Under the pieces are notes generated by a model. The model made no database searches. It had not been told where the DNA came from and saw nothing but the letters and a program-made list of their open reading frames with translations. The position numbers and the translations under genes are program-made. Positions 11,001 to 41,000 of a stretch of DNA of 64,000 bases are shown here, piece by piece (the stretch's first letter is position 1; the number at the start of each line of letters is the position of its first letter). Location: NCBI GenBank assembly GCA_030323885.1, contig CM059190.1, positions 89,867,989 through 89,931,988 of the forward strand, given 5' to 3'. Source of the DNA: Branchipolynoe longqiensis (Eukaryota; Annelida; Polychaeta; Phyllodocida; Polynoidae).

Positions 11001-14000
11001 AAGTGGTTGACTATGTGGACTATACAGACAGGTATCTACCTACAACTGAATGAAATTCACCTTATTATGTCTTATGGCATACACTGGTTGACTATCTGTA
11101 CTATACAGTTGGCGCAGATGAGTTGTCGTGGTGATGAGTTGTTGTAGTGATGAGTTGTTGCGGTGATGAATTGTCACAGTGATGAGTTGTTGCGGTGATG
11201 AATTGTCACAGTGATGAGTTGTTGCGGTGATGAGTTGTCACAGTGATGAGTTGTCTCAGTGATGAGTTGTTGCGGTGATAAATTGTCACAGTGATGAGTT
11301 GTCGCAGTGAAGAGTTGTTGCGGTGATGAGTTGTCATGGTGATGAGTTGTGGTGGTTATGAGTTGTTGTGGTGATGAGTTGTCATGGCGAGGAGTTGTTG
11401 TGGTGATGAGTTGTCACGGTGATGAGTTGTCACGGTGATGAGTTGTTGCAGTGATGAGTTGTCACAGTGATGAGTTGTTGCGGTGATGAGTTGTCACAGT
11501 GATGAGTTGGCTCAGTGATGAGTTGTTGCGGTGATGAGTTGTCACGGTGATGAGTTGTTGTGGTGATGAGTTGTCACAGTGATGAGTTGTTGTGGTGATG
11601 AGTTGTTGCAGTGATGAGTTGTCACAGTGATGAGTTGTTGCGGTGATGAGTTGTCACAGTGATGACTTGTCACAGTGATGAGTTGTCACAGTGATGAGTT
11701 GTCACGGTGATGAGTTGTCATGGTGATGAGTTGTTGCGGTGATGAGTTGTCACAGTGATGAGTTGTTGCAGTGATGAGTTGTTACAGTGATGAGTTGTCT
11801 CAGTGATGAGTTGTTGCGGTGATGAGTTGTCATGGTGATGAGTTGTCACGGTGATGAGTTGTTGCGGTGATGAGTTGTCACAGTGATGAGTTGTTGCAGT
11901 GATGAGTTGTCACAGTGATGAGTTGTCTCAGTGATGAGTTGTTGCGGTGATGAATTGTCACAGTGATGAGTTGTCACAGTGATGAGTTGTTGCAGTGAAG
12001 AGTTGTTGCGGTGATGAGTTGTCATGGTGATGAGTTGTGGTGGTTATGAGTTGTTGTGGTGATGAGTTGTCATGGCGATGAGTTGTTGTGGTGATGAGTT
12101 GTCACGGTGATGAGTTGTCACAGTGATGAGTTGTCACAGTGATGAGTTGTCACAGTGATGAGTTGTTGCGGTGATGAGTTGTCACAGTGATGAGTTGTCT
12201 CAGTGATGAGTTGTTGCGGTGATGAGTTGTCACGGATGAGTTGTTGCGGTGATGAGTTGTCACAGTGATGAGTTGTTGTGGTGATGAGTTGTCGCAGTGA
12301 TGAGTTGTCACAGTGATGAGTTGTTGCGGTGATGAGTTGTCACAGTGATGAGTTGTCTCAGTGATGAGTTGTTGCGGTGATGAGTTGTCACGGTGATGAG
12401 TTGTTGCGGTGATGAGTTGTCACAGTGATGAGTTGTTGTGGTGATGAGTTGTCGCAGTGATGAGTTGTCACAGTGATGAGTTGTTGCGGTGATGAGTTGT
12501 CACAGTGATGAGTTGTTGCGGTGATGAGTTGTCGCAGTGATGAGTTGTCACAGTGATGAGTTGTTGCGGTGATGAGTTGTCACAGTGATGAGTTGTTGCG
12601 GTGATGAGTTGTCACAGTGATGAGTTGTCGCAGTGATGAGTTGTTGCAGTGATGAGTTGTTGCCATGATGAGTTGTCATGGTGATGAGTTGTCATGGTAA
12701 TGAGTTGTCTCAGTGATGAGTTGTCGTGATGAGTTGCCACAGTGATGAGTTGTTGCAGTGATGAGTTGTTGCGGTGATGAGTTGCCACAGTGATGAGTTG
12801 TTGCGGTGATGAGTTGTCGCGGTGATGAATTTGTCCTTAAAAGCCGTCACGGGTTGGGTCTAAGGTCGCCACTAGTTGTATGTTCAGGACACCATGAAAC
12901 AATACGTTGCAAGCGACGAATTTGTAGTGACTACTCGCCTTGTGTAGCCCTAACTTTAGCACCATTACTGCATTTTGATCCCATCTGAGTGTGTGTGTTG
13001 ATATTTCATCTACTTGTAGAGCTTTCCTTTACACATTTTTGCTCAGAGATGTCACTTTCACACTTAAGGTGGATATTTCACGCTATGCCATTCTCATTCT
13101 ATATCTTTCCCAAACTAAAAGACGCATAAATAGTTAAATTGACATATGGAAGCAGAGTTTATTTCCCATAAGGATCACCTCAAGTGAAGCGAGGTTTGTT
13201 ACCAAAGGGGTTGGGAAAATACATTGTAATTGGATAAGTAAGTGAGGGACCCCCAAAAAGGCATTAGGCTCCCATTACTTTTTACTTTTAACAAAAAGAA
13301 GTGATTAATCGATTGACAATCGATATTTTCAATTCGTCAAACACTTCATCATTACATAAAGGAAATACATTTATTGGGGTGTCAATATTTATAATCTGTC
13401 AAGCACTATATCATTACAAAACAAAATTAATCGATTGGCGTGTTGATATTGTCGTAGGGGTGATGAAAATGGGAAATATTGCACCTAGAGTGGGACTCAA
13501 ACCCTCATCTCTTTGCATTCTGGGCCAGTGTGCTAACCATTACACCACCTAGGCTCCCTGATATCACCATACTACCCACACCTACCAGGCTATGTGGTTA
13601 CTTGCCTGAGAGATCAGTGCAGACCACTACACTCATCCCCCTGGAATTGTAAGTCTTTTAATGCTTACAATTACATACATACAGGCAATGTACTTACATA
13701 TACACATACACAGGGTAGGTTCAACAACTATACAGCGTGTAGCTTGTACAGGATCATGGTCATGGCAACCAGTGTTGAGGGGGTGATGAAAATGGGAAAT
13801 ATTGTGCCTAGAGCAGGACTCGAACCCACATCTCTTTGCATTCCGGGCCAGTGTGCTAACCATTACACCACCTAGGCTCCCTAATATCACCATACTACCC
13901 ACGCCTACCTGTCTATGGGGCTCCTTGACTGAGAGGTCAGTGGAGACCACTACAGTATTTTGAATCTGTTAATATTAATCGATTGATCTTCTGAATCTGT

Positions 14001-17000: not shown

Positions 17001-20000
17001 TTCGTATATATTTCTTTCCATCTTCACTTCCAAGGTTAGAGTAAGATAATTTATTGTAAATAACTGTATTGTCACATGGCTGGAAGACCAGTGCCATGGA
17101 GCAGACAAAAGACTTTATTCAATGAATAAATTATATTTACAAAAAAGAATAAAAATAGAACCAACGTCATCACACCATCAACTGATCAGTTTAAACTCCA
17201 CCCCCGCCCCCACCTCCCCCTCTGTCAGTATGAAAACGAGGTATCAATCCTGGGGAATTGGACAAACCGAGGTCCCACCATGTCCCGGGCCAAGTTCTCT
17301 GACATCACGGGCAAGTCGTCCCTGCCGAAGGAGGCCTTCGTCCCGCCGCCCGGCTGGCGCTGGGACTCGGAGTGGTACATCAGTCCCGAACTCAGGTAAG
17401 GAGCCTGGTGGCAGCTTTGTGGGGGGTAGAAACCAATGATTGTAAACCAGCTGTCACCGTGTGTATGAGTAGAAGTCCTATGTCTACATTAAAAATAACA
17501 AGTGACCAGACGGGATGGCCGAATGAGTTGAGCGTCCGTCTCTCGTTTCGGTAGGACCGTGGGATTCGAATTTGAAACCAATTAATTCGAACCTTGGTCG
17601 AGTCAAACCAATGACATAAAAATGTGCACTTGTCACGTCCTAGCCAGGCGCTCGGCATTATTAGGATAGGGCAAAGAGCAGTGGAATGAGGAAGACCAAT
17701 CATCCGCGATTGAAATTTCCCCTGCTTAATCAACTAATGTACACCCAAAAAACAGACGTAGCTCAGGCAGTAGAGTGTCCACCTGTGAAGGTGTAGGTCA
17801 TCCGATCGATCCTGCTTGTTCTAGCATGATGTTTGATTTAACCACCATGTGCTGCTTGTTCCAGCATGCTGTTTGATTTAATCATGGTGTGCTGCTTGTT
17901 CCAGCATGCTGTTTGATTTAATCATGGTGTGCTGCTTGTTCCAGCATGCTCTTTGATTTAACCACCATCTGCTGCTTGTTCCAGCATGCTGTCTGATTTA
18001 ACCACCATGTGCTGCTTGTTCCAGCACGCTGTCTGATTTAACCGCTGCTTGTTCCAGCATGGTGTTTGATTTAACCACAGTGTGCTGCTCGTTCCAGCAT
18101 TCTGTCTGATTTAACCGCTGCTTGTTCCAGCATGCTGTTTGATTTAACCACAGTGAGCTGCTCGTTCCAGCATTCTGTCTGATTTAACCGCTGCTTGTTC
18201 CAGCATGCTGTTTGATTTAACCACTGCTTGTTCCAGCATGCTGTCTGATTTAACCGCTGCTTGTTCCAGCATGCTGTTTGATTTAACCACAGTGAGCTGC
18301 TTGTTCCAGCATGCTGTTTGATTTAACCACAGTGAGCTGCTCGTTCCAGCATGCTGTCTGATTTAACCACAGTGAGCTGCTCGTTCCAGCATGCTGTCAG
18401 ATTTAACCGCTGCTTGTTCCAGCATGCTGTTCGACAAGGACGCCGGCCACACGACGTTCCTGGAGGACGTGTACGAGGCGCATGCCCGGATTCCTGGCGG
18501 GCGGTGGGGCGTGGCCAGCGTGCCCTACACCGACGTGGTAGGCACCTCCCACTTCCGGTGGCTCTTACAAACTACTGACTATCAATCATGGAATTTAACC
18601 TTCCTTCCGGTTTATCAATATCTTCATCTCTCTCTATATAATCTATACATATATATATACTATTTTACCTCGGTAAACAGCCTCAGGCTAGCCTCAGGCT
18701 AGGGAGAGAGGTAAGCACGTCCGGTACCAGCAATTAGCATATACAACTCACGACTGGATAACGTGTCGTTGGGTTGCTCCGGCAAAATTAGTCTACATAC
18801 AAGCAAATACGCAGTAAGTATAATAAAAACTGTGGTTAGCTTAATTATGATGCATTAGAGCATCAATATGGAAAGTTTAGACTTTCGTTGGTCCAATTTG
18901 GACGAGTTATTTGGTTATAAACAACCAAGGATAGAACACTCGAGTGGGTTTCGCGAAGGAACCAAACCGGTCATTAGCGGTTATGTCAACACCCGGGTCA
19001 CCGTGTGACTATGGGTAGAGATGTGGGTTTCGCCCTATCTCATGTGGAAATTCTCTCGTACTCTAATAGAGAGTAATGTTGGAGATGCTCCTGGGTTTCT
19101 TTTATAGACTCCCCTAGACAAAACTTTTTCAGGCGTTTCTCCGAGTTTCGTAGCATTTTCTCCAACTTGTTGACGTAGTAGTCACAGGTGGGAGAAGTGT
19201 GCGGAACAGAGGGATGGGCGGGCCGATACACTGGTCCCGACCCCGCGTAAGGTTTGGGCTTGACCCACAACCCACGCACAAATTTAGCTTATTACGCCTG
19301 TGTTATAACGGTATAAACACGTTCTTTAACACCAATAGATGTCCAAATGAGTTTGAAACAACCATATTGTGACATATATATATACCGGGACTGATCAAAA
19401 ATGTTTGTTTCAGTTCCCGATGGCCACGAAGCGGAGTAAGCGCGGTGCAGCAGCAGCCGAGGGGCGTGTTCCGAGTGGAGTGGACGAGGAGTACGACTCC
19501 TCACCCGTGTTGTCGGCAGGGCCGTCGACACAGCCCCGGGCGCATATCCTCTCCGACCCGGACGAGGACGCAGTGCCTGATGTGCCTGCGCCTCCAGATT
19601 GGGAGGCTCGCTTTGCAAGATTGGAAAGCCACATCTTGACTGCCAAATCGCCTGTGTCTCGGAAGCGGCGTAGGCCGAGTGTCCAAGAGGATTCATTTGA
19701 GGATTTCTTGGACACAGACTCGGCGGTGGAGCTTAAGGCTCCTCCTCCTCCTTCTCCTAAACGGAGGAAGAAGAAGAAACAGGTGATTTCTTCGGGTGAT
19801 GAATTCACCAAGGAGCGGGCAGAGTCTGGTTTGCGCAAAAAGCGGAAGACTAAGTCCAAAAAGAAGAAGAGGAAGAGGAAATATTCTTCTTCTGAGTCGT
19901 CCACTGAGTCTACTTCTACGGAATCAGACTCAGACACCGTATATGAAGGGGTCTATGCGGACATTGGCACTAAAGTGGCTAAGAAGGTGGAGAAGCCAAA

Positions 20001-23000
20001 GGCTAAGCGGGTTAAAACCACTACGCTTATGCGCGAGACCGTGAATGGTCATTTTCGCACGTTCAAACCGGCGGAGGTTATCTCCAAGTTAGGAGATGAG
20101 TTAACAGGCATAAAGGGTGTTCCCAACTCCATCATTAAAGAAATGGATCGGGATGTCAATATGACGGATGACCGTAAGAAGTTTGAGGATGTGTTGCACA
20201 CAGTGCATAAGGCAGTGTTGGCTACCCTAACAGCTATTGTTCCTGTGGCTAATAGGATGCAGAGTGAAAATAAGTTCTCGTCTTTGGCTAAGACAATGGA
20301 CAAAGGCATTGCAGTGCTAGCGGCGGCAGGTAATTACCTGTCGTTTCGAAGATATGAAAATGTCTTCAAGTCAGTTTGCACAGATGCTGGCAAAGAAGTG
20401 GCTCGCTCTAAGAAGGTTACCGATAATGAGGGGAAGGAGTTTACGCTCTATCTTGCTCCAGAGCCGATTAAAGGGAAACCTTTAGATAATACCAAGATGT
20501 TTGGCGGTCAACTACAATACCTCTATAAAGAGGTAGAGACTGCAGCCAAGAGTGGCAAAAACATGGATGGCAAGAAGAAACAGGAAGTTCCTCGTTTCAA
20601 AAAGTCACGAGGGGATTTTCGTCCACGACGGTTCACCAGAGGAACCAGACCGAGTTCAAACTTCGGTCAAGGGTTTCGGGGCCGGGGCGCTCGCCCAGGC
20701 TGGACCGACAACACCGCACGGCCAATAGGCCGAGGGTTCAACTCGTCGAGACCTTTCCCCAGGGGCGGGTCCAAGTAGAGGTCCAAACACAAACTTTACA
20801 AGTCCCTGCAGCCTCTAAAAACACACAAACTGTAAGCAACTTTGTGGCTGGTAATATTAGTAATCATATTTCTGAGTGGCACAAAATTACTAGTGACCAA
20901 GAAATTATAGAAATAGTTAGGGGTGTTCAAATTCCTTTTACACAAATTCCTGTACAAAGTATAATACCTTTTCCATATAACATTCAACCAGTTGAACGAG
21001 ACGCACTAACTAAACAGGTACATAAATTCTTTGAGAAAGGAATTATACAAAAAGTGACACACTGTTCAGGACAGTTTATTTCAAACATTTTCTCGAGACC
21101 GAAGCCTAATGGTGATGTTCGAATGATCCTGGATTTAACAATCCTTAATAAAAGGGTGGAATATCGACATTTTAAAATGTTCTCTCTAGATACGGCACGG
21201 GATCTGATTACACCAGATGCGTGGATGGCTAGTGTTGATTTACAGGATGCATATTATACGCTTCCCATAATGGAACAATACCGAAAATTTCTTCGATTTA
21301 TTTGGGATAACCAACTCTATGAGTTTACCTGTATGCCGAATGGCTTAGCTTGTGCGCCACGTTTATTTACTAAATTGCTTAAACCTGTTTTCTCGGTAAT
21401 GGCGAGGAAGGGTCACATAATGTTTCCATACATAGATGATTCTTTTATTATAGCATCAACACAAATTGGTTGTGTGAATGCAGTTTTGGATTTATGTGCA
21501 TTACTCACTAAATTGGGGTTTTATGTACATCAACAAAAGTCAGTGTTTAAACCAACAAAACAACTCAAATGTTTAGGGTTTATTCTGGATACACAGTCCC
21601 TTACAGTGTCGATAACAGAACAAAAACTAATTAAGTTTATGACTACAGCGACTCAGCTTATTAAGTTATCAAAGCCAAAAATTAGACAGGTTGCTGTTCT
21701 TATTGGCATAATGACCTCATATGCACCTGCTGTGTTATATGGGAAGGCCCATATTAAGTCGCTAGAAATAGATAAAAATTTAGCGTTAACACGAACTAAA
21801 GGCAATTTTGAGCGAAAGATGTTTATTTCGCAAGAAGGGTTACAGGATATTGGATGGTGGATGCAACATATAGCAAGTTCACCAAATCCAATCCGCATGG
21901 CGGAACCTAATACAGTAATTACTACTGATGCTTCGTTAGAAGGTTGGGGAGCTCATCGAGATGGGGTCACAACAGGAGGTAGATGGCTTGATGATGAAAA
22001 ATCAGACTATATTAATGCACTAGAATTGCGTGCTATTTATCTGGGCTTACGTAGTTTAGTAAAGATAAATAAATCACAGGTTAGAATACTAACTGATAAT
22101 ACTACTGCCATGGCATATATTCGTAACATGGGTGGAACCAAATCAAAGTCTTGCAATCAGTTATCTAAACTGATTTGGAACTGGGCACAGGCTCAACAAG
22201 TCTGGCTGACTGTAGCGCATATTCCAGGGTCACAAAATACACTTGCAGATTATAAAAGTAGAAATTTCCATGACCATTTAGAGTGGTCTCTCTCTACACA
22301 TTTGTTTAACTTCGTTTGTGAAAAATGGGGTACACCTGAAGTTGACTTATTTGCATCACGAAATAATAACAAGTTACCCTGTTATGTTTCTTGGCATCCT
22401 GAACCGGATGCTTGGAAAGTAGATGCGTTTGCTATTACCTGGGAAAATAATTATTTTTATATTTTCCCACCATTTAGCATTATCAGCCGAGTAGTGAGAA
22501 AAATCGGCTTGGAAGGGACACATGCGATACTGGTGGTGCCCGATTGGGACACGCAACCTTGGCTGCCAGCAGTTTCACAACTGGCAAAAGATCGTATACG
22601 ATTCCCAAGAAAACTCGGGAATCTGACGCACCACGGACCGCTAGTGGTTCACGGCGACGTGTCAACGACGCCCCTATTGGCATTCCTTTTCTAAGGAAGC
22701 AGCTACAGCAATTTGGATTGGACAGAATTACTGAGGATAGGATAGTATCGGATGCCTGGAGGCCAGGAACTGTCAAAATGTATACAACCTATTTAAAGAA
22801 ATGGGGTGTACATTGTTTGTTAATGAAAGTTAAGCCAACAAATCCAAAGATTTCACAAGTAGCTCGGTTTCTTCGTTCTCTAGAGGATGAAGGACTTTCC
22901 TTTGGATCGATTAATGCGGCGAGGTGTGCGTTATCAATTATATTACCTAGAATTGATGGCGAAACAGTTGGAAAACATCATGTTATTTGTTATTTACTTC

Positions 23001-26000: not shown

Positions 26001-29000
26001 GGGTGGGAGTGGCAGCACGACTGGGACGTGGACCTGAACCGGGCTGTGGACGAGGAGGGCTGGGAGTACACCGTCGAGGCGACCCTGGGCGGCTATGGGC
26101 CCGTCGAGAAGACCTACCACATGTGCCGGCGTCGGCGCTGGTTGCGCCTGCGCAAACTGGTGAAGACTTCCGTTATGAAGGAAAAAGAGGTGAGTGCGTA
26201 TAAGCAAAGACAATGTACGACAAGATGCTCTGCGCCGCGACCCTCAGCGCTTTCATATAGGAATTTCTTAGATAATCATGCCGTGCTGCCACCCAACGAC
26301 AAACAAGGCAATTGGACAGGTCCCCTAGCCCCACTGTGACTGCTGTACCATCGAGACAAGGGGACATGTTCCCTAGCCCCACCCTGACTGCTGTACCATT
26401 GAGACAAGGGGACAGGTCCCCTAGCCCCACCCTGACTGCTGTACCATTGAGACAAGGGGACAGGTTCCCTAGTTCACCCTGACCACTCTACCATCAAAGA
26501 CCATGTATGGCAATTATAGTCAAGTATAGTCAATTATAGTCAATTATAGTCAATTATGGTCAATTATTATTCAATTATATAATATATAATTATTATTCAA
26601 TTATAGCAACAATTATAGTGGGAGATATACACTGTGTAAAAATAACATTTTAATTGGCATTTAATGCGCACCTTGCTTGCCGTGGGATGGCACGACGGCA
26701 TCTGTATTTCACGGGAAAGCGCTGAGTGGTGCATCTTGTCATACATTGTCTTTGGTATTTATAAAGAAACCCCCAGTCACACTACAGCTTGTGACCACTT
26801 TGTGACCACTTTGTGACCACTTTGTGACCACTTTGCGACCACTTTGGACCAAAGAACGCACAGTCACCGGCGACCTCCTTGCGACCAAAGCAATGATCGG
26901 GGACCTCTGGGTGAGAAAAATGGTTGCAAGGAGGTCGGTGACCACTTTGTGGCCTCTTTCAAATATCTCCAATGTTAGTCATTCTAGATCTAAGGTACTT
27001 CAAACTAACAGTAACACTAAGGTAGATTATTTTTATCGCAGAAAATAACAGAAGTAAACTCAAAATCAACGGACTGTGACACTTTAGTCAGTATATTGTA
27101 TTGAAATAGATGCACATTGTTCTTAGAGGGTAACCAAATTTCTTATGAACCTGACACCGGACTCGGTGGCCGAATTGGTAGAGCGCCGGCCTCGCATGCG
27201 GGAGATCGGGAGTTCCGTTCCCAGTCGACTCAAACCAATGACTTATAAAATTGATACTTGTCGCTTCCAGGCCTGGCATTTGGCATTAATAGGATAGAGA
27301 AAGGACTGGTTAGCTCAGTGTCAGGATAATGTGACCGAGTTGAATATCGGGTCATGGTGCTGGCATCCTGATTTCCTAGTGGGGCAACACTATAAAGTCG
27401 CCATGAGTGCGCACTGTCATAAGTCGTACCCGTCCTGGTATGACTTTAGATGTTGCCAGGATGTTAAACTCAGAACAAAGAAACAAACGAACCCAATGAG
27501 GCAGCACTATAAAGTCACCATGAGTGCACACTGTCATAAGTCAGTACCCATCCTTATATGACCTTAGATGTTGCCAGGACATAAAACTCCAACAAACAAC
27601 CAACCTTATATCATAATGGTGTATTTATTTAATGTCTTCGCATAGACTGAGAAGCAGACCGAGGCTGCGTTGGGATGGGAGTACGCGCCATTGTTCAACA
27701 TGAAGTTCCACCACAAGGAGCGGCGCATGGACCTGGTGCGTAGGCGCCGCTGGCACCGCAAGATGGTGGCCGACGACCCGCGGGCGCCATGCTTCTTCCA
27801 GATCGAGGACGGCGACTCGGTGAGTAGTAGGATGGTGGGGGACCAGGAGGGGCGGGGACGGCGACTCGGTGAGTAGTAGGTAGGATGCTATGGGACCAGG
27901 AGAGATGGGGATGGTGACTCGGTGAGTAGGATGGGACCAGGAGGGATGGGGATGGTGACTTGGTGAGTAGTAGGATGCTGGGGGAACAGGAGCGATGGGT
28001 ATGGTGACTCGGTGAGTAGTAGGACACTATGGGACCAGGAGGGATAGGTATGACTCAGCGAGTAGTAGGATGCTGGGGGACCAGGAGGGATGGGGACAGC
28101 GACTCGGTGAGTAGTAGGATGCTGGGGGACCAGGAGGGCTAGGGATAGCAACTTGTTGAATAGGATGCTATGGGACCAGGAGGGATGGGGATGGTGACTT
28201 AGTGAATAAGTGAAATAGTATGATGTTGGGGGACCAGGAGGGATGGGGACAGTGACTCAGTGAGTAGTAGGACGCTGGGGGACCAGGAGGGATGGGGATA
28301 GCGACTCGTTGAATAGGATGCTAGGGGACCAGGAGGGACGGGGATGGTGACTTAGGGGGCATTCGACTGGGCCTCTCTGCAAATATCAAAATATTTCCTA
28401 ACAAATTCCTATTCGACTGGGACCGGAAGTGGGTTACTATACGCATGATTCGGATGTGTGTTGTGGCTCAATCCAATCCATCCATAAATCTTGCGGATAG
28501 AAAGGGCCCAGTCGAATGCCTCCTTTGTGAATAAGTGAAATAGTAGGATGCTGGGGGACCAGGGAGGATGGGGACAGTGACTCGTTGAATAGGACGCTAG
28601 CGGACCAGGAGGGATGGCGATGGTGACTTAGTATCACTTAGTGAATAAGTAGGGTGCTAAGGGACCAGGAGGGATGTGGACAGTGTCTTGATGAGTAGGA
28701 CGCTGGGGGGGACCAGGAAGGATGGAGTAGTGGTTAGAACGTCCGCTTCAAGTGAAGCGAAGATCACCAGTAATACTCATTCCAGAAATCCATAGGGACT
28801 CAAACCCCATATTTGAGCGATACATGTGTATATTAAATTGCTTTTTTTAATCAAAAAAACTTAGCTGAAAGTGCAAGGTGTTTTGACTATATATAGGAGG
28901 TCATGTGTAAAATCTATACTAATTTATGTAATTTTCAATACCTGCCCACCCCGTGTTTATGTGTTTATACAGTAACACCTCTCTAAGTCTAACCGACCAC

Positions 29001-38000: not shown

Positions 38001-41000
38001 GAGAAAAATGTTAGAAATTGCAATCTAAAATGATAAATATAAAGTTCAAATGTTTATTTATCATAACCAGCTACTTTTTGTGTGAATAATTGATTAAATC
38101 ATGTAGATTAATAGACTTTAAAAGTTGAATTGAGAGCTTTCTGTGGCTGCCATCTTGGTGGTTGCCATGGCTTCCCCTGTGTGTGGGGAACCCCTCTAGG
38201 TCATGTGATGAGGGAATCCCACCTATGATGTCATTCATACATCACAGACCTCAACTCTCCTCCCACATGTTCAGTGGCATGAACTGAACAAACTAAGTAA
38301 AGGTATGTTTGGAGAGCTTTTGATGCTGGATTCGTTTGTACCTGGGTGAGGTATAGCCGGCGACTTTAATGGGGATATTTGCTTGTATTGGTTCCCTACC
38401 TGGTGGGGCATTTGTGTAGTGATTATGGGAGTTCAGGCAGTCAAATATTCAACGGCTATTCCCATTGAGAATAGTGGGGCAGGGTCTTCCTTATTCCATC
38501 CGTCCTGATATGACATTAAATGTTGCCAGGACGTAAAACTCCAACAAACCAACCTACCTTATTCCACTGCTTGACTTGAATATTTACCTGGATCTGGTCT
38601 TGGGTCTGGTCTTTGAACTGATCTTGAGATATAGTCTTGGGTCTGGTCTTGGATCTGGTCTTGGGTCTGGTCTTGGATCTGGGCTTGGATCTGGTCTTGG
38701 GTCTGGTCCTGGATCTGGTCTTGGAACTGGTCTTGGATCTGGTCTTGGATCTGGTCTTGGATCTGGGCTTGGATCTGGTCTTGGGTCTGGTCCTGGATCT
38801 GGTCTTGGAACTGGTCTTGGATCTGGTCTTGGATCTGGGCTTGGATCTGGGCTTGGATCTGGTCTTGGATCTGGTCTTGGATCTGGTCTTGGGTCTGGTC
38901 TTGGGTCTGGTCTTTGAACTGGTCTTTGAACTGGTCTTGGATCTGGTCTTGGGTCTGGTCTTGGGTCTGGTCTTGTTGGTTTGGGGATCTGCTCTTGGGT
39001 CTGGTCTTGGAACTGGTCTTGGATCTGGTCTTGGGTCTGGTCTTGGATCTGGTCTTGGATCTGGTCTTGGATCTGGTCTTGGATCTGGTCTTGGAACTGG
39101 TCTTGGATCTGGTCTTGGATCTGGTCTTGGATCTGGTCTTGGATCTGGTCTTGGATCTGGTCTTGGGTCTGGTCTTGGATCTGGTCTTGGATCTGGTCTT
39201 GGATCTGGTCTTGGGTCTGGTCTTGCATCTGGTCTTGGATCTGGTCTTGGAACTGATCTTGGATCTGGTCTTGGATCTGGTCTTGGATGTTTGGTTGGTT
39301 TGGTGGTTTGGTTGTTTGGTGTTTGGTGGTCTTAGATCTGGTCTTGGGTCTGGTCTTGGATCTGGTCTTGGATCTGGTCTTGGATCTGATCTTTGGTCTG
39401 GTCTTGGATCTGGTCTTGGAACTGGTCTTGGATCTGGTCTTGGATCTGGTCTTGGATCTGGTCTTGGAACTGGTCTTGGATCTGGTCTTGGATCTGGTCT
39501 TGGAACTGGTCTTGGAACTGGTCTTGGATCTGGTCTTGGATCTGGTCTTTACGATATTTGAGAGGTGGGTGGTAAATAAAACAAAGGCACAGCGTAACAT
39601 GTTGTTGTCAGCAGGTGTGAACCTAAGCTGGCGATATCACATAGCCATATTTTAGTTCCGTATTCGGCCAAGGGTGGCGCCAGTGCCACTTCCCACATGT
39701 TTCCCCAACAAGTGCCGCCAATAGACCATTTCCGTGGAGCATGCGCAGTGAGCTGCTACCCAATACACCGGGCCCGATGGCCTAATCGGTAGAGCGTGGA
39801 CCTCACATGCGGAAGGCTGGGAGTTTGTTTGCTGGTCGAGTCAAACCAATGACTTTAAAATTGATACTTGTCGCTTCCTAGGCTGGCGCTCGGCATTATT
39901 AGGGCAAGGACTGGTTAGCTCAGTGTCAGGATAATGTGACTGAGTGCTACCCAATACATTAGTTCTTGCCTCTGCCGTCAGAGGGTGGGTTGGTGAGAGG
40001 AGATCGTCTATTGTAGTATTATAGAATTTATACCAACATGCAAGTCGTGGGTCTTACATGTTCTGACCTTGGTGAAATGACCTTCAGCTGCTGACCTTTG
40101 ACCGCCCTTTACATTGCAAGCTGCATGGTGACTGGATTATAATTAATGTATTGCAAATGTAGTGCTTATAAAGTTATCAGTGATAGCTCTGCATCCTTCT
40201 AGCATAAGCGCATATTAGCCGTCCAGTCTATGTTAAGGGATAGAACTGTTATTTTGGAATGACCAGTGGCTAACATTGAACTGGCATGCCCTTGTTTAAA
40301 AACAGTCCATATGGTCCATTTTCAGAAATGTCGTCTATCGCTTAAAATGTATATAATTATGTATTATTTTGCAAATATCCTGGATTTTTTAAAGAAAAAA
40401 AGAAATGTTCTTCATTAATAAATATCCCGTTCTGAAAACAGGGATATGACCTTATATGTTGCCAAGATGTAAAACTCCAACAGCCAACCATTAATAAATA
40501 TCTGTGTAAGCTTCTAAAACACAATGTTATATATGGAATTAATCTCATACAGTAAGCACTGATGCAAAATAACATTTGGAAATTTCACAAATTCCACTAA
40601 TCCATCGTCACGTGACTAATACCGCTATTCCTTTCTGCACCTTCAGTTGACAAGTAGACAAATAGACAAATCTCTCCCTAATATATTCGCCACAATGGCC
40701 ATTCTTTCACAAACACTTCAAAGGTGTCACCGGCTTTCATTTTGTTATCCCAATTTTAAAGTGAAGAGAGACCACTCTATTGCTTTAAAGAGGCCCAATA
40801 ATTCTGCTGAAATTGACATTATCAACAACAACAATGACAACAAAGTCTCAGCTTTGAGCAATGTGGAGGGGAAGTAATCGGCACAAAAGTGACAGTAATC
40901 GATGACCTACATATCCTAGGAGCTTGGGTGGGTCGGAGGGTGGATTGGGAGTGAGGTCATTGGGGTCATCTGAGATTTCCAGATTGTTCAAAGAGCTCCC

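Follow-up and report, generated by a model that had tools for sequence, protein, structure and literature searches.

Tandem copies of a splice acceptor at ferlin exon 7 in Branchipolynoe longqiensis have the anatomy of amphioxus 'mirages'

The exon 7 acceptor of a ferlin (muscle-repair) gene in Branchipolynoe longqiensis is the last in a row of 17 near-identical acceptors, which form a minisatellite at positions 17812–18431 on the plus strand of the window, i.e., the 64,000-nucleotide stretch of DNA analyzed here, to which all coordinates refer unless a contig is given. In its anatomy the array matches the mirages, a kind of repeat that has been described before but is not widely known. The explanation that we prefer, and consider probable, is that the minisatellite was born at the intron–exon border, that its exon-most copy is used under exon definition, and that the 16 upstream decoys are mostly silent. 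A second array, composed of donor copies, is present at exon 9 of the same gene, and in both arrays the tandem units span the exon–intron border.

The units of the exon 7 array are 33 or 40 bp long and repeated head to tail, and their alignment reveals a common plan consisting of TTTAAC, a short pyrimidine stretch, CAG, and about 12 nt of exon start. Together with the AG count, this confirms the proposal of the first-pass annotation that the units are 3′ splice-site modules and that about 16 of them are complete: there are 16 decoys plus the true site, all 17 of the form GTTC[C/T]AG|CA. The AGs of acceptors 1–8 end at 17824, 17864, 17904, 17944, 17984, 18024, 18057 and 18097, those of acceptors 9–16 at 18130, 18170, 18203, 18236, 18269, 18309, 18349 and 18389, and that of acceptor 17, the true one, at 18422. 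The decoys, delimited by pattern and frame check, cover 17818–18389 (plus strand), and the last module, assigned by protein alignment, covers 18390–18422 (plus strand). Successive AGs are separated by 40 or 33 bases, and by this spacing no unit is missing. The AG is present in 16/16 decoys, as scored with a unit pattern that includes the AG itself.

All 16 stretches between AGs, i.e., the approaches to acceptors 2–17, contain TTTAA, followed by C (14 stretches) or T (two), and further 3′ they have CTGCT[T/C]GTTCCAG in common; in the 40-base units, seven extra bases are inserted between these two elements. TTTAA precedes 15 of the 16 decoys, and the exception, acceptor 1, lacks the element because the head of a SINE adjoins the array there. 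Judged from its sequence, TTTAAC may act as the branch point of the units, and the distance between the putative branch-point A and the AG would then be 16 bases for short units, including the true exon 7 site, and 23 bases for long ones. The pyrimidine stretch is short and interrupted by two Gs. On the exon side, exon 7 begins CATGCTGTTCGACAAGG, and its first nine letters, CATGCTGTT, follow the AG exactly in six of the 16 decoys, while the other ten differ from CATGCTGTT by at least one letter. Units and exon 7 remain alike over roughly the first 12 nt of the exon (CATGCTGTTYGA), beyond which the sequences diverge.

The gene was called a ferlin in the first-pass annotation, an assignment that stands because FerB (1e-25) and C2 (2.1e-14) score above the Pfam cut-offs elsewhere in the gene, and FerA is recovered there as two pieces, each below cut-off; alignments with dysferlin and myoferlin agree. 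Exons 6 and 7 together give a sub-threshold Pex24p match as their sole Pfam hit, and support for the DysF region comes only from the dysferlin and myoferlin sequences of the PDB sequence set; the FerA/FerB, C2 and DysF-region similarities follow one another in the proper order. Exon 6 (17229–17395, plus strand; protein alignment) ends in CTCAG|GTAAGG in phase 2, and exon 7 (18423–18537, plus strand; protein alignment joined to exon 6) ends at the donor GACGTG|GTAGGC; intron 6 measures 1,027 nt and intron 7 measures 7,418 nt. With exon 6 joined to exon 7 at the 17th AG, the junction is gapless against both dysferlin (E = 2.6e-27) and myoferlin (E = 7.1e-25) of the same sequence set, and the joined-exon alignment shows that splicing at 18422 yields a ferlin protein without insert. 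The true acceptor is accordingly located at 18422|18423 in the exon-most copy of the array, where the first-pass annotation had put it. Decoy 16 (18389) is the sole decoy that keeps the ferlin frame open, with an addition of 11 residues. The other 15 entail a frameshift, a stop codon, or both, and units 12–14 each meet a stop as had been predicted.

The donor array follows exon 9 (27646–27819, plus strand; protein evidence), whose border reads GACGGCGACTCG|GTGAGTAGTAGGATG at 27819|27820, the intron starting with GTGAGT. The array is defined by tandem repetition and border copies, and extends over 27806–28354 (plus strand) with a unit of about 49 bp that contains GACTCG|GTGAGTAGTAGGATG; downstream of the exon, the border recurs at spacings of mostly 41–53 bases. 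Among the 12 decoys listed, two of which are remnants beyond 28354 (at 28584 and 28690), GTGAGT is preserved in six, and in the remaining six its place is taken by TTGAAT (three), GCGAGT, GGGGGC or ATGAGT; one more unit, at 28201, reads GTGAAT. The exon 9 array is partly decayed, with a mean pairwise divergence of 0.175 (one unit left out) compared with 0.082 in the exon 7 array.

Mirages are described in amphioxus as tandem copies of intron–exon borders, derived from 5′ or 3′ boundaries, in Adh3, TnC and the globins BflGb6 and BflGb9, with similar repeats in PGBD5 (PMC3087553, PMC3902484; TnC and PGBD5 in PMC3902484), and the reported units are 10–72 bp long in Adh3 and about 150–160 bp in the globins (PMC3087553, PMC3902484). 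Adh3 data and globin RT-PCR in the same reports suggest that regular splicing is undisturbed. As far as these descriptions go, amphioxus mirages resemble the exon 7 and exon 9 arrays in being border copies, in having many units with AG or GT signals, and in keeping the true border, but length polymorphism and RT-PCR have been shown in amphioxus, and the ferlin arrays are described here from the assembled sequence. The exon 7 array differs further by its 16 decoys in a single acceptor array, 15 of which are preceded by a putative branch point, and by a donor array in the same gene; this combination is new, as is the initial estimate that arrays of this kind may affect a few percent of the splice borders in this genome. 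A phenomenon described from amphioxus is thereby extended to another animal genome, which bears on the origin of introns and of alternative acceptors. In human, Turri, Cuin and Porter reportedly described in 1995 a minisatellite with multiple splice donor sites in an interferon-induced transcript, said to be that of the gene 6-16 (G1P3/IFI6). Its units would likewise provide splice sites; these are donors, provided in the transcript according to the title, whereas the exon 7 array consists of acceptors seen in DNA. In open-access literature, searched mostly by title and abstract start, we found no report of such arrays outside amphioxus and this human transcript, and none of mirages in other invertebrates; passages of an earthworm metallothionein paper (PMC12783039) describe intronic minisatellites and no copied borders.

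To count such arrays, a 28-base border (18 bases of intron and 10 of exon) was scored as positive when at least three further copies were present in its flanks, which were 250–300 bp long for genes with an ABC membrane domain and 1.5 kb for the other families. Positive borders numbered 2/26 in ferlin, 3/90 in genes with a myosin head and 3/44 in the ABC sample, a total of 8/160, of which six are clear and two doubtful (about 4% clear). A simple score applied near domain ends served to choose the survey borders, and individual choices may be wrong. The 68 myosin matches were reduced to 50 loci (the best 30 and the next 20 without internal stops), 45 of which were used after omission of L040, L042, L047 and L069 (internal stops) and of L066 (a copy of L065); the ABC sample comprises 22 of 52 matches, taken first by rank among those without internal stops.

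Four of the six clear arrays come from the myosin and ABC genes. Locus L059 (G000:C10, match at 50460851–50461048, minus strand) has a myosin acceptor array built of 75-base units, with CTAAT and TAG in their consensus; TAG is intact in 18/18 decoys, counted by similarity with one more unit place below the cut and unscored, and CTAAT is not intact in all. Besides TAG, each unit at this locus contains an element resembling CTAAT and some 45 bases of myosin exon, and the unit length is a multiple of three. Locus L073 (G000:C11:5931935-5935060) has a myosin donor array with a 56-base unit and GTAAGT intact in 26/26 decoys; TRF reports about 25 repeats with 96% matches at 1587–2973 of this locus, which is well suited to studies of RNA and polymorphism. 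The two ABC arrays are donor arrays, at L091 with a 38-base unit and at least seven decoys in the flank examined (GT intact in seven), and at L100 with a 57-base unit and at least three decoys in the flank examined (GT intact in two). In all six clear arrays, the presumed true site is the copy nearest the exon, with the four survey sites picked by simple score. Three candidates were set aside: the L058 donor is doubtful with GT kept in one of five copies, the L098 acceptor is doubtful, with an uncertain true border and a position within a 16-bp repeat that lies 51 nt above the match, and the L097 donor, with one copy by the mechanical rule, was left uncounted. At each of G000:C12:33750455-33753217 (977 and 977) and G000:C3:35148929-35151109 (777 and 777), two myosin-head pieces separated by about 2 to 2.6 kb have equal open-frame lengths, which may indicate introns that are stop-free in one frame, perhaps through minisatellites that are multiples of a codon.

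The first-pass annotation regarded the amplification of an active splice site as unusual, a view that is not supported in light of the donor array in the same gene, the six clear cases among 160 borders, and the mirages of amphioxus. Nor do the counts show an attraction of arrays to splice borders: under the same rule, random 28-mers were positive in 88/540 cases in the myosin flanks and in 44/264 in the ABC flanks, compared with 8/160 borders, and a looser count in the window (3 kb on each side) gave 203/1500. Tandem arrays with a period of at least 20 and at least 2.5 copies account for 8.6% of the window; in the flanking sequences of 46 myosin loci they account for 13.5%. Since minisatellites are everywhere in this genome, border arrays are to be expected, and borders carry fewer of them than intron interiors do.

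At about 4% of the sampled borders (6/160), the splicing machinery must single out the copy nearest the exon from as many as about 27 near-identical sites, and nothing local to the exon 7 array, neither matrix score nor folding, explains this choice. With a small in-gene matrix, in which the reference acceptors range from −1.4 to 13.3, the true site reaches 7.3, within the span of 2.4 to 7.7 covered by the decoys; a value of 9.2, above those of all 17 acceptors, belongs to an additional out-of-frame AG in the last unit, at 18400. Because the sites are near-identical, stand in a row and have similar scores, local strength cannot decide between them. RNA structure that would hide the decoys was considered and rejected as a discriminator: predicted pairing is equal for decoy and true AGs, and the array folds no better than shuffled sequences (z = −1.38, with 3/20 shuffles as good). 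In the folding model, the acceptors tend toward a small GCUG...CAGC hairpin or toward longer stems, and 11 of the 17 lie within the palindrome CAGCATGCTG.

A rule that could decide is proximity. In minigenes with duplicated splice sites (Reed and Maniatis 1986; Carranza et al. 2022, PMC9225289), identical sites compete and proximity is described as decisive, which makes them similar to the exon 7 array, except that two sites compete in the minigenes and from at least four (L100) to about 27 (L073) stand in a row in the arrays sampled here. According to PMC9225289, the sites nearest across the exon are preferred for exons with large flanking introns and those nearest across the intron for short introns. 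The latter preference, for which Reed and Maniatis (1986) are cited there, would select the upstream acceptor and thus count against use of the last copy. As these rules differ by intron length, acceptor choice would depend on the mode of definition, and introns 6 and 7 are long (1,027 and 7,418 nt), so the cross-exon rule is expected to apply, in favor of the exon-most copy.

The border-born minisatellite that we favor would thus have the following history and behavior. A minisatellite would happen to arise across an intron–exon border, its units carrying the splice signals of that border, and would grow into the intron, the original border staying as the exon-most copy. The intron 6 pre-mRNA would then offer 17 near-identical acceptors, and exon 7 would normally be defined from the last, guided by the body of the exon and by the distance across it to the donor rather than by the local site. 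Decoys would be mostly silent, and their rare use would give mostly frameshifts and stops, or the one in-frame form with 11 additional residues. The same process may have produced the exon 9 donor array and the arrays in other genes, and border arrays would be tolerated because exon definition favors the exon-most copy. Such arrays provide many natural loci for testing exon content and cross-exon distance against local strength in site choice.

The intactness of the exon 7 decoys is unexpected if decoy use is costly and the array is old, and counts against this explanation. In a functional alternative, close to the suggestion of the first-pass annotation that the array could tune splicing or vary between individuals, the decoys would be used appreciably and the number of units would set the share of frame-breaking (or 11-residue longer) transcripts and tune ferlin output. 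The AG present in all 16 decoys, the TTTAA element before 15 of them and the open, in-frame decoy 16 are in line with such tuning, and splice-signal columns of the exon 7 array are less variable than others (2/18 versus 12/22, p = 0.007, with acceptors 2–17 as 16 rows, one being the true site), as are those of L073 (0/9 versus 26/47, p = 0.002) and of six arrays pooled (p = 0.001). However, the exon 7 test weakens to p = 0.047 when the columns of the 7-bp spacer are excluded, no difference is seen in L059 (13/18 versus 43/56, p = 0.76) or in the exon 9 array (5/9 versus 9/12, p = 0.40), and the pooled value becomes p = 0.45 once the exon 7 array and L073, the two arrays that suggested the pattern, are omitted. 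Selection keeping the decoys intact is for this reason not claimed. Moreover, the invariant Gs within the pyrimidine stretch are not what selection there would keep, six of the 12 listed exon 9 decoys have lost GTGAGT, and the amphioxus arrays, in the passages cited above, are described without disturbed or aberrant mRNA (PMC3087553, PMC3902484). We consider appreciable use of the decoys unlikely. A broader version, in which thousands of genes in this lineage permanently carry minisatellites at splice borders, decoys are kept working to help exon definition or tuning, perhaps as redundant branch-point/U2AF or U1 binding sites at the neighboring exon, and unit number acts as a heritable splicing dial, is in our judgment slightly less likely still.

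It is very unlikely that the main exon 7 acceptor is an upstream copy, above all decoy 16, and that the protein normally contains the 11 extra residues. Decoy 16 is open, in frame and scores 6.5, compared with 7.3 for the last site, but dysferlin and myoferlin align here without any insert. We would be just as surprised if the repeat number, or the array as a whole, were an assembly artefact absent from the animal. Tandem repeats are a usual source of assembly errors, but the units differ in an orderly fashion, by 33/40 alternation and private changes, the array is only about 600 bp long in an assembly with contigs of up to 189 Mb, and similar arrays occur in unrelated genes.

With respect to the origin of the units, the 33-bp form, searched as a pattern with up to three mismatches in the 1.85-Gb genome, has six matches, all inside the exon 7 array, i.e., none at other loci, and the reversed control pattern has none; a query with the whole locus returns a single place in the assembly. 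The array is joined at CTGCT by the tRNA-like head of a dispersed SINE (17754–17816, plus strand; defined by genomic copies), the body of which is missing. Scoring of 40 out of 1345 candidates places the SINE at no fewer than 39 further sites in the genome, and in 15 of 16 compared copies, those on the plus strand of their loci out of 29, the head is followed by a common body that is lacking beside the array. In one copy, L029, the SINE head is followed by other sequence and the common body is lacking, as at 17754–17816. That the array derives from this SINE or from another dispersed repeat, with a secondary likeness to the border, is suggested by the exact adjacency of the SINE head and is the remotest of the alternatives, given that the body of the compared copies is a different sequence, that the unit pattern is found nowhere else in the genome, that the shared exon letters sit where other ferlins align gaplessly, and that the junction fits a later event. 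With the common body absent and CTGCT shared by SINE head and array at their junction, the SINE is not taken as the source of the units, and a later microhomology deletion through the 5-base CTGCT match would be the simplest account of the junction. The approximately 12 copied bases of exon 7 encode positions aligned in other ferlins, which suggests that the border was copied into the array rather than the reverse.

Two further features of the locus lie in ferlin introns. Intron 7 contains an open frame of 473 residues at 19357–20775 of the window, with a first half rich in K, R and S and no Pfam match up to E = 0.01, which is possibly a mobile-element protein. Very long arrays of short units are present at 11117–12828 (16 bp × 107) and 38589–39549 (12 bp × 80).
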